From the IMG/VR virus record IMGVR_UViG_3300045012_000158, positions 1-47,006 of that record: a stretch of DNA of 47,006 nt. One strand, written 5' to 3'. The stretch is from a virus. The notes beneath the pieces were generated by a model. The model made no database searches. It saw only the letters and a list, made by a program, of their open reading frames with translations, and was not told where the DNA came from. The translations under genes and the position numbers were made by a program. Shown one piece after another: positions 42,402-45,862 of the stretch (its first letter is position 1; each line of letters starts with the position of its first letter).

Positions 42402-42417
42402 GTCCTATTATTAGGAC
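42402..42417. promoter_or_regulatory. Operator-like palindrome GTCCTATTATTAGGAC
   Basis: First of two tandem copies, 11 bases after the repressor stop. Arms GTCCTA/TAGGAC are perfect. Together with the next copy it lies upstream of the early operon starting at 42499. Confidence 0.65.
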
Positions 42418-42435
42418 TTGTACGGCGCGTGCCGC

Positions 42436-42451
42436 GTCCTTACATTAGGAC
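42436..42451. promoter_or_regulatory. Operator-like palindrome GTCCTTACATTAGGAC
   Basis: Second tandem copy; start-to-start distance from the first is 34 bases, close to three helical turns, which would allow cooperative binding on one DNA face. Extended arms CGTCCT/AGGACG. Confidence 0.65.
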
Positions 42452-42458
42452 GTACCGC

Positions 42459-42498
42459 GAGGGCGTTGGGTCCGGCGGTTTGGGCAAAAGGCTCACAA
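42459..42498 (+). promoter_or_regulatory. Start-associated leader, copy 0
   Basis: The 40 bases before the ATG at 42499 share GGGC, GGGTCCGG, TTTGG and AAAG with the leader at 43276-43316, in the same order and spacing. Here the upstream hairpin of the other copies is replaced by the operator palindromes. AAAGG is the probable ribosome site. Confidence 0.5.
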
Positions 42499-42747
42499 AT
42501 GACAACCACCAAATACACGATTGCTTACGTTGGCGCGCGGCGCGGCGATGGCACCTTGCGCGCTTTGACGGATTGGCATGGCGCCGAGATTGGCGTTTGC
42601 CGGTTAACGTCATCGTGGCGCGTTGACAGCTATATCGGCACGCGCATGCACCAGATAACCGCGTGGATTAAGGGCGTTCGCTATACCGGCCGCGGCTTTG
42701 GCGAGGGCATGTCGGTTCGGTTGCGCCCGACGGCGCGGCAGGCATAG
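42499..42747 (+). CDS. Small early protein, 82 residues
   Basis: It starts MTTTKYTIAYVGARRGDGTL; the ATG at 42499 is preferred because the longer frame would translate the operator and leader. Predicted beta-rich with a basic C-terminus (MHQITAWIKGVRYTGRGFGE). First gene of the repressor-controlled operon. No family recognised; an anti-host role is plausible from place only. Confidence 0.65.
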   Translation: MTTTKYTIAYVGARRGDGTLRALTDWHGAEIGVCRLTSSWRVDSYIGTRMHQITAWIKGVRYTGRGFGEGMSVRLRPTARQA

Positions 42748-42761
42748 GGGAGGGGTGAGCG

Positions 42762-43001
42762 ATGGAATACACGTTGCACCGTTGCCGCGCCTATTTCACG
42801 CGCGTTGGGTATGAGCTCCGGTTATTCAATGCCGATGGCACGCCGTACACGCGGTTGCTGTCGATAGAGGGGCGCGACCCGCGGGTTAAATTTCCCGATT
42901 CCGATCCGATCCGGTTTTGGGGAAATGACGGGCGCAAGGTGCGCGCCGAGGCGCTGGCTTGCGCGCGCGCGTATGGCGCAACGAAGCGTCGGGAGGGTTG
43001 A
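42762..43001 (+). CDS. Small early protein, 79 residues
   Basis: It starts MEYTLHRCRAYFTRVGYELR after the strong site GGGGAGGGG. Mixed beta/alpha, charged, ending with a helix (KVRAEALACARAYGATKRRE). Fourteen bases after the previous gene. Unknown function. Confidence 0.65.
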   Translation: MEYTLHRCRAYFTRVGYELRLFNADGTPYTRLLSIEGRDPRVKFPDSDPIRFWGNDGRKVRAEALACARAYGATKRREG

Positions 43002-43004
43002 GCG

Positions 43005-43214
43005 ATGTATGATTTTGCGGTTCCCAACGCCAAGCCGGGGACATGCGAGAAATGCCGCGGTTCGGGCGAATATCGCTGGGGCGCGGTGGTGAACGGCAAG
43101 GCGCAGCATAGCGGCAAGTGCCATTCCTGCGGCGGCACGGGCAAGCAAAGCGTTTCGGATATCCGGCGCAACGTTGCCTATAACCGGCACAAGCTGCGGA
43201 ATATCAGTTTGTAG
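43005..43214 (+). CDS. DnaJ-type zinc-finger protein
   Basis: A 69-residue protein containing CEKCRGSGEYRWG and CHSCGGTGKQSV, two CxxCxGxG repeats that would form one zinc site like half of the DnaJ cysteine-rich domain. No J domain is attached. Such small proteins are common in phages. It starts three bases after the previous gene, with GGGAGGG upstream. Confidence 0.7.
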   Translation: MYDFAVPNAKPGTCEKCRGSGEYRWGAVVNGKAQHSGKCHSCGGTGKQSVSDIRRNVAYNRHKLRNISL

Positions 43215-43238
43215 CCTCGCGCGCATACGCACCCATTA

Positions 43239-43316
43239 GCCTCAAACGGTTCGGCCGCTGAGGCTTTTGCGGTGCCAGGGCAACGGGTCCGGGCATTTGG
43301 TCGAAAGAGCCGTGAA
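43239..43316 (+). promoter_or_regulatory. Hairpin plus start-associated leader, copy A
   Basis: A stem GCCTCA/TGAGGC (43239-43264) with an inner CGG/CCG pairing and TTTT, followed by GCGGTGCC, GGGC, CGGGTCCGGGC and AAAG up to the ATG at 43317. The same order occurs at 44483-44559 and 45025-45099. The hairpin may weaken transcription from upstream while the leader drives translation. Confidence 0.55.
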
Positions 43317-44222
43317 ATGAAAGACGTTTACCAGCAAGTCACGAATACCATCATAACCGCGCTAGAGAGCGGTACCGCACCTTGGCACAAGCCTTGGTCG
43401 CCAACGCTCCCCGGCGCCAAGGTGAACGCGCAACGGCCGATCCGCGCGACGGGTGAGGCTTACAACGGCGTTAACGTGCTTTTGCTTTGGTCGCGGCAAA
43501 TGGCGTCGGGTTACACCTCGCCGCAATGGATGACGTTTAAGCAAGCGCTCGCGCTCGGCGGTTGCGTGCGCAAGGGCGAAAAGGGCGAGATGGTGGTTTA
43601 CGCCGACCGCTCGGTTAAGACGCGCCACAACGATGCGACGGGGGAAGACGAGACCTACGCCATCCCGTTTATGAAAGCCTACACGGTCTTTAATACCGAG
43701 CAAATCGACGGGTTGCCGGCGCGCTTTACGACGCGGCCGGTTGAGGCGCCGGTTGCGGTCGAGACGCGCAACGCGAGCGTCGACGCATGGGTAAGCGCGA
43801 CGGGTGCCGATGTCCGGCATGGTGGGGACCGCGCGTTTTTTATTCCGAGCGCCGATTACGTGCAAATGCCGCATCTCGCGCAATTTGACGACGCGGAAGC
43901 TTATTACGCGACGCTGTTGCATGAGCTCACGCACTGGACTCACGGTACCGGCCGGATCGAGCGCGAATTCGGGCGCAAGCGGTGGGGAGACGAGGGGTAC
44001 GCGGCGGCGGAGGAATTGGTTGCCGAGATGGGCGCGGCGTTTCTTTGCGCGGACCTAGGCGTTAGCGCCTCGCCGCGCGCCGACCACGCCAGCTATATCG
44101 AATGGTGGTTGCGGGTGCTGAAAAACGACAAGCGGGCGATCTTTACCGCGGCCGGTCACGCGCAGCGCGCGGCGGATTACCTGCACGGGTTTAGCGTGCC
44201 GCTCGCGCTGGCGGCTGAATAG
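43317..44222 (+). CDS. ardC: ArdC-type antirestriction protein
   Basis: A 301-residue protein. Residues 1-125 form the ArdC-type single-stranded-DNA-binding domain: APWHKPWSPTLPGAKVNAQR, YNGVNVLLLWSRQMASGYTS, MTFKQALALGGCVRKGEKGE. The C-terminal metallopeptidase-like domain carries HELTHWTHG (202-210) and a downstream EELVAEMGA (232-240) that supplies the third zinc ligand. ArdC proteins protect incoming DNA against host restriction. The ATG at 43317 follows a leader module; the frame upstream to 43272 is non-coding leader. Confidence 0.85.
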   Translation: MKDVYQQVTNTIITALESGTAPWHKPWSPTLPGAKVNAQRPIRATGEAYNGVNVLLLWSRQMASGYTSPQWMTFKQALALGGCVRKGEKGEMVVYADRSVKTRHNDATGEDETYAIPFMKAYTVFNTEQIDGLPARFTTRPVEAPVAVETRNASVDAWVSATGADVRHGGDRAFFIPSADYVQMPHLAQFDDAEAYYATLLHELTHWTHGTGRIEREFGRKRWGDEGYAAAEELVAEMGAAFLCADLGVSASPRADHASYIEWWLRVLKNDKRAIFTAAGHAQRAADYLHGFSVPLALAAE

Positions 44223-44235
44223 GGAGGGGCGAGCG

Positions 44236-44457
44236 ATGATTGCGAAAATCACCGATGCCTACGTGCGGCATTACAGCGACAACGGGCAAACGACGGCCTA
44301 TGTCGAGTGGATTGACCATCGCGGCCGCACGGGGCGAACCGAGGGCGCCGTGAAGGCAAAACGCGGCACGCTGGCGCAGGTTTATGGCGAGCATATGGGC
44401 GCGCTGATCGCTCGCGCGATTTGCCACGGCGTGGAGATCCGGCGCGAACGCTGGTAA
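44236..44457 (+). CDS. Small early protein, 73 residues
   Basis: It starts MIAKITDAYVRHYSDNGQTT after GGGAGGGGCGAGCG, almost the same ribosome site as the gene at 42762. Two or three beta strands (TAYVEWIDHRGRTGRTEG) and a C-terminal helix. Possibly linked to ArdC function by position. Unknown. Confidence 0.65.
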   Translation: MIAKITDAYVRHYSDNGQTTAYVEWIDHRGRTGRTEGAVKAKRGTLAQVYGEHMGALIARAICHGVEIRRERW

Positions 44458-44482
44458 CCCGCTCGCGCATACGCACCCCTTT

Positions 44483-44559
44483 AGCCGGCATAGGTAGCAC
44501 TAGCCGGCTTTTGGGCTGAGAGGGCATTGGGCCCGCTCGATAGGGAAAGGGTTCCTGAG
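44483..44559 (+). promoter_or_regulatory. Hairpin plus start-associated leader, copy B
   Basis: Stem AGCCGGC/GCCGGCT (44483-44509) with inner TAG/CTA pairing and TTTT, then GGGCATTGGGCCCG and ATAGGGAAAGGGTTCCT before the ATG at 44560. The last 17-base part is identical in copy C. Confidence 0.6.
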
Positions 44560-44808
44560 ATGCGTAAATTCAACACGATTTGGCCGCTGCCGGTTTACGT
44601 CGCGACGTTTTCGGACGGCGAGGTAGTGCGGTTGTCCTTCGGTTCGCATTTCGTGCCCGCCGCGGCGGCCGTGTTGCGCGTCGTGCGCGGCTCGCGCAAG
44701 CCGGCTTATGAGCAAATCCTCGCCGCGCTGCCGGAACTGACATTCGCGCAGCTAGAAGAGCTCGAAAGGGTTCTCGGCGATGTCATCAACGAAAAGCTCG
44801 CGGCGTAG
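44560..44808 (+). CDS. Small early protein, 82 residues
   Basis: It starts MRKFNTIWPLPVYVATFSDG, directly after leader copy B. An N-terminal beta part (EVVRLSFGSHFVPAAAAVLR) and a C-terminal helix (LTFAQLEELERVLGDVINEK). No family recognised. Confidence 0.65.
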   Translation: MRKFNTIWPLPVYVATFSDGEVVRLSFGSHFVPAAAAVLRVVRGSRKPAYEQILAALPELTFAQLEELERVLGDVINEKLAA

Positions 44809-44820
44809 GGAGGCGCAGCC

Positions 44821-45000
44821 ATGATCGATCGCAGCGAAGTCAACCGGGCGCTGGCGAAAGCCATCGCCTACAAGCAATGCGGCAAGGATCGCAAGGCGGA
44901 AGCATGGGCGGCCGAGCTCGTGCGGTTGCTGGAATGCGCAGCGATTATTGATCCGGCTTACAGCGCATGGGCCGGCAAGCGCGGGATCGTGCCGGACTAA
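44821..45000 (+). CDS. Small early protein, 59 residues
   Basis: It reads MIDRSEVNRALAKAIAYKQC, then GKDRKAEAWAAELVRLLECA and AIIDPAYSAWAGKRGIVPD. GGGAGG lies just upstream of the ATG, and it sits neatly between its neighbours, so it is a real gene despite its size. Predicted as a helical pair. Unknown. Confidence 0.6.
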   Translation: MIDRSEVNRALAKAIAYKQCGKDRKAEAWAAELVRLLECAAIIDPAYSAWAGKRGIVPD

Positions 45001-45024
45001 GCGACTCGCGCCATTGACGCAACG

Positions 45025-45099
45025 GCCGGCATGGGTGATCCCAGCCGGCTTTTGCGGTGCCGGGCATCGGGCTCGGCGCATAGGGAAAGGGTTCCTCAG
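45025..45099 (+). promoter_or_regulatory. Hairpin plus start-associated leader, copy C
   Basis: GCCGGC/GCCGGC with an inner TGGG/CCCA stem and one bulged A (45025-45049), then TTTT, GCGGTGCCGGGC, and ATAGGGAAAGGGTTCCT before the ATG at 45100. This is the most stable hairpin of the set. Confidence 0.6.
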
Positions 45100-45522
45100 A
45101 TGTCAGCATTTTTTGTCGGAGATGAGACCATCACGCGGTGCGTTACGGCGATCATGTCGGATGCGTTTAAGATCGAGCTTGACGCGGCGGAGACGGCAAC
45201 GCGCGGTGCGGCTGAGCGGCTTGGGTGCGATCTTCGCGCTATGAATATCGCGGCGTTGCGCGCGCGTTACGGCGATCGGCACCCGAAAGAATTCAAGGAA
45301 TGGGGATGGGATAATCCGGCTTACGCATTTGCCGGATTTTCCGACGCCTCGCCCGTGGAGCTCCACAAGGCGCTAGAGTGCGTGATCTACCAATGCTCGG
45401 AAGGCGATATCGACACGTGGCCGCTTTATGAGCGGTGCGAAGCCGTAGCGCGCGCGATCAAGGCGCGCCATCGCATCAACCGCAACGGCGCGGCATGGGA
45501 ACGCGCGGCGTGGGGAGATTGA
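45100..45522 (+). CDS. Early protein of a widespread unknown type
   Basis: A 140-residue protein starting MSAFFVGDETITRCVTAIMS. It continues with RAMNIAALRARYGDR and WPLYERCEAVARAIKAR. I have seen related openings ('FFV-DETI-R-V') in phage and plasmid proteins of unknown function. It follows leader copy C. Likely an accessory protein interacting with the host. Confidence 0.65.
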   Translation: MSAFFVGDETITRCVTAIMSDAFKIELDAAETATRGAAERLGCDLRAMNIAALRARYGDRHPKEFKEWGWDNPAYAFAGFSDASPVELHKALECVIYQCSEGDIDTWPLYERCEAVARAIKARHRINRNGAAWERAAWGD

Positions 45523-45778: not shown

Positions 45779-45797
45779 AAACCCCGACTCGCGCGAA

Positions 45798-45823
45798 AGC
45801 CCGGTTTCGGCCGGGCTTTTTTT
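45798..45823 (+). terminator. Rho-independent terminator
   Basis: AGCCCGG pairs with CCGGGCT around a six-base loop and is followed by seven T. It closes the early operon that starts at 42499. Confidence 0.8.
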
Positions 45824-45827
45824 GCCC

Positions 45828-45844
45828 GTTGCGCGGGCGGCAAC
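45828..45844. promoter_or_regulatory. GTTGC palindrome, copy 5
   Basis: GTTGCGCGGGCGGCAAC, between the terminator and the third operator palindrome, in front of the next operon (start 45883). Here both palindrome families meet within 35 bases. Confidence 0.5.
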
Positions 45845-45846
45845 GT

Positions 45847-45862
45847 GTCCTCATATTAGGAC
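45847..45862. promoter_or_regulatory. Operator-like palindrome GTCCTCATATTAGGAC
   Basis: Third copy of the 16-bp element (extended arms TGTCCT/AGGACA), 20 bases before the ATG at 45883. It suggests that the repressor at 41840 also controls the second early operon. Confidence 0.65.

Follow-up and report, generated by a model that had tools for sequence, protein, structure and literature searches.

A composite leader at the right end of the window

The window analysed here, a 47-kb stretch of DNA (47,006 nt), is an IMG/VR record of an uncultured phage for which the annotated phage collection returned no DNA match. On the + strand of its right end (41.8–47 kb) lie small non-structural genes, among them one for ArdC antirestriction at 43317, and most large ORFs of the remaining window, e.g., the terminase, lie on the opposite strand; judged by position, the genes described below are presumably early. 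A prophage search of bacterial genomes recovered no member of the g41840 family and no copy of the terminase, and hence gave neither a prophage nor a host assignment. The best plasmid matches of ArdC lie mainly in Alphaproteobacteria, which as a host hint is only suggestive, and the window terminase matched no mycobacteriophage among the hosts listed.

A composite leader precedes four start codons in this region. The first-pass annotation had placed leader ends at 42498, 43316, 44559, and 45099, and the ATGs follow directly (42499, 43317, 44560, and 45100). Each leader has the same order: an upstream part, which is either a GC hairpin followed by TTTTG (hairpin C) or a putative promoter (P), then hairpin A, then hairpin B, whose loop holds a Shine-Dalgarno (SD)-like run, and then the ATG (Table 1). 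The two small hairpins A and B, missing from the first-pass annotation, form the core of the leader. Module 1 is of the P type and modules 2–4 are of the C type, in keeping with the earlier description of a GC stem plus TTTT in three copies and of operator palindromes (GTCCTNNNATTAGGAC at 42402 and 42436) in place of the stem in the first. The ordered sequence blocks described earlier are present in all four copies, and the pattern GGGCNNYGGGYYCG, derived from these copies, matches only those four sites in the window (expectation by dinucleotide shuffle 0.34; 0/100 shuffles reach 4); the block given as GGGYYCGG has to be shortened to GGGYYCG, since copy 3 reads GGGCCCGC. The last two copies are indeed identical over the 17 nt of ATAGGGAAAGGGTTCCT before the ATG (44540–44556 and 45080–45096), and the longer pattern has no other site in the window within 3 mismatches. 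The start-proximal letters of the window copies read TGGGCAAAAGGCTCA, GGTCGAAAGAGCC, and AGGGAAAGGGTTCCT. Rfam curated families gave no gathering-score match in the window or in the related loci L030, L038, L039, and L111.

The headers serve cassettes of one to three genes. Genes inside the cassettes use ordinary GGGAGG-type sites (GGGAGGGG-GAGCGATG), and the leader thus singles out the gene that opens each cassette. The ArdC gene (43317–44222) is well matched (ArdcN 3.5e-40, MPTase-PolyVal 1.1e-48, phrog_7245 7e-95), and the first gene of cassette 4 has no match in Pfam or PHROG. Two further products are recorded as side observations: that of 43005–43214 carries CxxCxGxG motifs and is DnaJ zinc-finger-like (Pfam 4.5e-06, below the curated cut-off), and that of 44821–45000 (MIDRSEVNRALAKAIAYKQCGKD...) is a tiny conserved protein with relatives in 77 viral loci (L051–L127) and no match in Pfam or PHROG.

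Table 1. Leader modules, cassettes, and associated features; positions are those of the window except in the last three rows, which refer to the sister-phage loci.
Feature	Position	Strand	Basis
Operator-like palindrome GTCCTATTATTAGGAC, upstream of putative -35 of module 1	42402–42417	.	Further copies 42436–42451, 45847–45862
Putative promoter P, module 1: TTGTAC-17-TACATT, -10 overlapped by palindrome 42436–42451	42418–42446	+	Read by eye
Hairpin A, module 1	42454–42479	+	Fold; arm-swap test
Hairpin B, module 1: TGGGC-AAAAG-GCTCA, 3 nt from ATG 42499	42481–42495	+	Fold; arm-swap test
Cassette 1, three small genes (42499–42747, 42762–43001, 43005–43214)	42499–43214	+	ORFs; internal starts with GGGAGGG sites
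Hairpin C, module 2, then TTTTG	43238–43269	+	Terminator score; alignment
Hairpin A, module 2	43271–43297	+	Arm-swap test
Hairpin B, module 2: GGTC-GAAA-GAGCC, one bulge, weakest of four	43299–43311	+	Sequence reading
Cassette 2, ArdC-type antirestriction gene (43317–44222) and small gene (44236–44457)	43317–44457	+	
Hairpin C, module 3, then TTTTG	44483–44513	+	Terminator score; alignment
Hairpin A, module 3	44517–44539	+	Arm-swap test
Hairpin B, module 3: AGGGA-AAGGG-TTCCT	44542–44556	+	Fold; arm-swap test
Cassette 3, small genes 44560–44808 and 44821–45000	44560–45000	+	ORFs; homologs
Hairpin C, module 4, then TTTTG	45024–45054	+	Terminator score; alignment
Hairpin A, module 4	45057–45079	+	Arm-swap test
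Hairpin B, module 4: AGGGA-AAGGG-TTCCT	45082–45096	+	Fold; arm-swap test
Cassette 4, first gene	45100–45522	+	ORF
Full-strength terminator, stem + T7, contrast to C hairpins	45796–45823	+	Terminator score
Modules in L030	5239, 4374, 3400, 2391, 988, 250		
Modules in L038	3941, 3593, 2012		
Modules in L039	3927, 3648		

Recurrence in related phages

The first-pass annotation had staked its reading on recurrence of the leader in related phages, and the leader does recur. Sister phages were found via the terminase, and three of them (L030, L038, and L039) include the corresponding region, as judged from homologs of g41840, g44821, g46342, ArdC, g44560, and g45883. Read through, this region yielded 11 more modules, standing before different genes (Table 1). 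Hairpin A is present in all of these except L030 3400 and a B-like hairpin in all, with no clear SD in the B loop of L030 2391; upstream lies either a P-like promoter element or a hairpin C with its T run. In all copies the module ends 2–8 nt from the ATG.

The modules and the genes behind them have not stayed together. ArdC stands behind a C-A-B header in the window and L030 and behind a P-A-B header in L039, where (3927, minus strand) the gene has shrunk to a 26-codon remnant behind an intact header, which we read as a natural scar of gene decay or of a swap. In L030 a P-A-B cassette opens with a gene of the g44821 family, which in the window, L038, and L039 lies inside a cassette. With both families under differing headers or none, modules and genes are evidently not inherited as fixed pairs. 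The earlier proposal of portable modules, which would let small accessory genes be swapped and expressed individually, is borne out in part by this recurrence and reassortment; headers front cassettes rather than every gene.

The full module is known from four phages only. Two scans of a wider relative, G007 (terminase 62%), revealed no such modules, and a terminase profile search gave no additional close relatives. Against viral contigs, the exact leader pattern had no match and a looser A-B pattern had 14, none of them leader-like in context. ArdC as bait recovered two other phages, both without this leader. A regex scan for B-type start hairpins across all fetched loci matched almost only in this phage family; a generic hairpin-before-ATG scan was unspecific on its own.

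Part of the module extends further. The DNA pattern of the C-A junction has copies in four further phages (L129 = L132 = L111; L130; L133; L134), in which C is similar and the A stems are new (CAGCC/GGCUG, CCAGGA/UCCUGG, GGCC/GGCC, and CCGC/GCGG). Module 4 has the window C nearest to that of phages outside the full-module family. As C-A is followed in L111 and L130 by a different leader, rich in CACGACAC, it constitutes a separable half-module. For the kinship of these phages to the window, the only shared gene looked at was a g44821 homolog in L111. Their CACGACAC-rich leader is itself repeated before small genes (L111 6940–8630, L130 2642, and L134 6989).

Folding of the hairpins and the signals upstream

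MAFFT misaligned the A-B leaders, for which reason pairing was assessed not with a covariance model but with an arm-swap test, in which the 5′ half of one copy is joined to the 3′ half of another, the products are refolded freely, and their stability is compared with that of the native set. Hairpin A folds in 18/18 copies, and native arms are more stable than swapped ones both for A (-14.4 vs. -10.1 kcal/mol) and for C (-16.2 vs. -9.3 kcal/mol), with 0/100,000 permutations as stable in either case. Letters thus change while pairing is kept, showing that the leader acts, in part at least, as folded RNA. For B, support for pairing is modest: the result was weaker (601/20,000 permutations) because many copies have common GGG/CCC arms. 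Even so, its innermost pair varies (C-G, A-U, U-A), and its outer stem differs between the two L039 copies (GUUU/AGAC vs. GUUA/UGAC). In module 2 the test gave the B region a different fold from the reading by eye, though still a hairpin. A loops measure 4–5 nt and are AUYGG-like in several copies, but vary between phages (AUCGG, GUUGG, AUUUC, GUUA); B loops likewise differ (AAAAG, GAAA, AAGGG, GAGG).

Hairpin C resembles an intrinsic terminator in having a stem followed by UUUU. All aligned copies (11/11), however, stop at exactly TTTTG, with a conserved NGGTG past the T run, and their terminator scores run from -13 to +11 vs. +29 to +52 for T5–T8 terminators of the same phages—on a scale calibrated on E. 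coli that may not suit the host. The TTTTG hairpins thus score as weak, not strong, terminators. L030 3400, in which a T7 tail directly abuts B without an A, is a misfit to this rule. Several of the strong T5–T8 terminators precede a P element (window 45796, L038, and L039), whereas C-type modules have no recognisable promoter downstream of C. Weak score and missing promoter are most simply explained together if at least some of the polymerase reads past C; C may be a partial terminator, or its single-stranded UUUUG, lying between two hairpins, may be a processing site. A sigma-54-like promoter inside C, considered by eye, was rejected, the TTTTGAGG copies being without the GC element.

In the sister phages, the promoter-like P element consists of a GTTGC-N-GCAAC inverted repeat over the -35 region, followed by a TATAA-like -10. 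The putative P of module 1 occupies the same position, and a consensus promoter scan gave no prediction there. In P modules, hairpin A starts about 6–15 nt past the -10, which puts it close to, or right at, the predicted mRNA 5′ end. The three GTCCTNNNATTAGGAC palindromes of the window (42402–42417, 42436–42451, and 45847–45862) are associated with two putative promoters, and two of the three overlap the -10; the one at 45847 follows the full-strength terminator of Table 1, behind a promoter-like GTTGC repeat at 45828. These palindromes were not found in the sister phages and are therefore probably phage-specific operators. Conservation across the four phages makes g41840, the gene upstream of the module 1 palindromes, a possible candidate regulator.

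The leader as a proposed cassette header

On balance we favour, with some reserve, the reading that the module is a composite portable RNA leader—a “cassette header”—that heads accessory cassettes of one to three genes, whatever the genes. Specifically, hairpin C with its fixed UUUUG tail would form or protect the 3′ end of the message before it and yet let at least some RNA polymerases through. Hairpin A would then lie at or near the 5′ end of the next message (via transcription start in P-type modules, via processing or read-through in C-type modules) and protect that end, a known role of 5′ stem-loops; its place near the predicted 5′ end in P modules suggests such a protective stem. Hairpin B would display the SD-like run to the ribosome a few bases before the ATG, as the purine-rich run in its loop, 2–8 nt from the start codon, suggests. 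We infer the roles in translation and stability, and the partial passage at C, from sequence.

A plainer explanation, which we regard as unlikely, is ordinary punctuation, i.e., an intrinsic terminator per cassette plus a normal ribosome site, with the likeness among copies due to recent duplication or exchange. Although C is laid out like an intrinsic terminator and the scores of some copies are slightly positive, an ordinary terminator does not need the conserved NGGTG past its T run, and a complete stop would silence the next cassette, there being no recognisable promoter after C. The near-identity of modules 3 and 4 looks like the result of a recent duplication, and L030 3400 places a full T7 terminator immediately before B, yet recent copying cannot explain why the letters of A and C have diverged between copies and phages with their pairing kept.

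We consider it very unlikely that the leader is a translational control point, at which A and/or B bind a phage or host RNA-binding protein or an antisense RNA, switching all headed cassettes. An SD-like run in a small hairpin loop, as in B, is the classical layout of RNA-binding-protein control sites, A loops are alike in several copies, and one header type stands ahead of many different genes; against this, the loop sequences of A and B differ between phages, and no regulator candidate was found. CsrA-type control in particular was dropped, as the window and L039 loops are without GGA.

That the repeats are operators or promoter parts for DNA-binding regulators, not RNA structures, is highly unlikely: operator-like palindromes do lie beside module 1 and at 45847, and for the inverted repeats of the extended start-associated sequences (ESAS) of mycobacteriophages a role as DNA sites has been argued (PMC3203893) and promoter hexamers are described (PMC11373665), but A and C diverge in letters with complementarity kept, as RNA pairing predicts, both always point towards the start codon, and C has its T run on one strand only.

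The cassette-header reading gains context from the start-associated sequences (SAS) and ESAS of cluster K mycobacteriophages, whose plan the first-pass annotation had called very similar; published descriptions of SAS/ESAS do match the plan of the header (PMC3203893, PMC11373665, PMC7302621). In cluster K, SAS (GGGATAGGAGCCC) precedes start codons by a few nt, and ESAS lies upstream of it (PMC3203893); ESAS combines SigA-like promoter hexamers with an inverted repeat (PMC11373665). Like SAS, the header places a short conserved SD-core element of the form GGG-SD-CCC near non-structural gene starts, before unrelated gene families and in the non-structural part of the genome; like ESAS, a subset (the P modules) has an upstream inverted repeat over promoter hexamers. 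While the L030 copies (GGGAAAGGAGTCCC) come close to the cluster K GGGATAGGAGCCC, the window copies do not match that consensus, the P sequence differs from ESAS (compared with Pixie), and the header has the extra hairpins A and C. Cluster K SAS copies are nearly invariant, whereas header stem letters vary with pairing kept, and header phages have no detectable kinship to cluster K (DNA records, terminase).

In five cluster K genomes (Pixie, Milly, Amelie, Amgine, and Anaya), CGG/CCG and TGG/CCA occur as paired SAS arms, and single breaks are commoner. Given this mixed pairing, our claim is that the header works like SAS/ESAS, not that it is a member by sequence or descent. The paired variants (L135, Mycobacterium phage Pixie, at 5520; L138, Amgine) are a hint of a SAS hairpin, outnumbered by the single breaks. 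The SAS authors observed that CCC is conserved though unable to pair with rRNA (PMC3203893), which pairing with GGG could explain. Cluster EF Microbacterium phages carry GGGAAAGGACCCC and an upstream motif, described as unrelated to cluster K (PMC7302621). The header shares with them a start-proximal GGG-SD-CCC and a linked upstream motif; the latter, weakly conserved, centred on GTAGAG, and with no C/A hairpins described, sets them apart by description. Apart from the SAS papers, literature searches turned up no relevant account of comparable leaders.

Two other phage systems invite comparison. The morons of lambdoid phages are autonomous accessory cassettes, each bringing a promoter and a terminator of its own; here, too, accessory cassettes carry expression signals, but most lack a recognisable promoter and have a common leader instead. 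In the early polycistronic mRNA of phage T7, RNase III hairpins divide the message into units, and hairpins partition the message here as well; C, at about 10 bp, is however short for RNase III, and T7 sites have neither a U4 tail nor a start-site leader.

What SAS/ESAS do has been an open question since 2011, in part because their sequences show so little variation; the present system, seemingly independent and of the same plan, does vary, and pairing is kept in two of its three hairpins. It offers a testable proposal for how exchangeable accessory genes, e.g., an antirestriction gene, are kept expressed wherever they land, and the C-A-B header provides a searchable signature for accessory cassettes. 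We think it quite unlikely that an SD in a start hairpin, combined with a cassette-separating hairpin pair, is a general and convergent phage expression “socket,” one mechanism of which SAS/ESAS is another instance; if true, any gene inserted there would be expressed.

As a separate observation, L004, a phage found only via ArdC, has its own repeated start modules (at about 5650, 5892, 7183, 7716, and 9097), in which a near-identical TTGACA-type promoter and a GTCGCGGCGATGGACGCCGCAAGGAG leader stand ahead of ArdC and several small genes; these look like an independent example of cassette headers.
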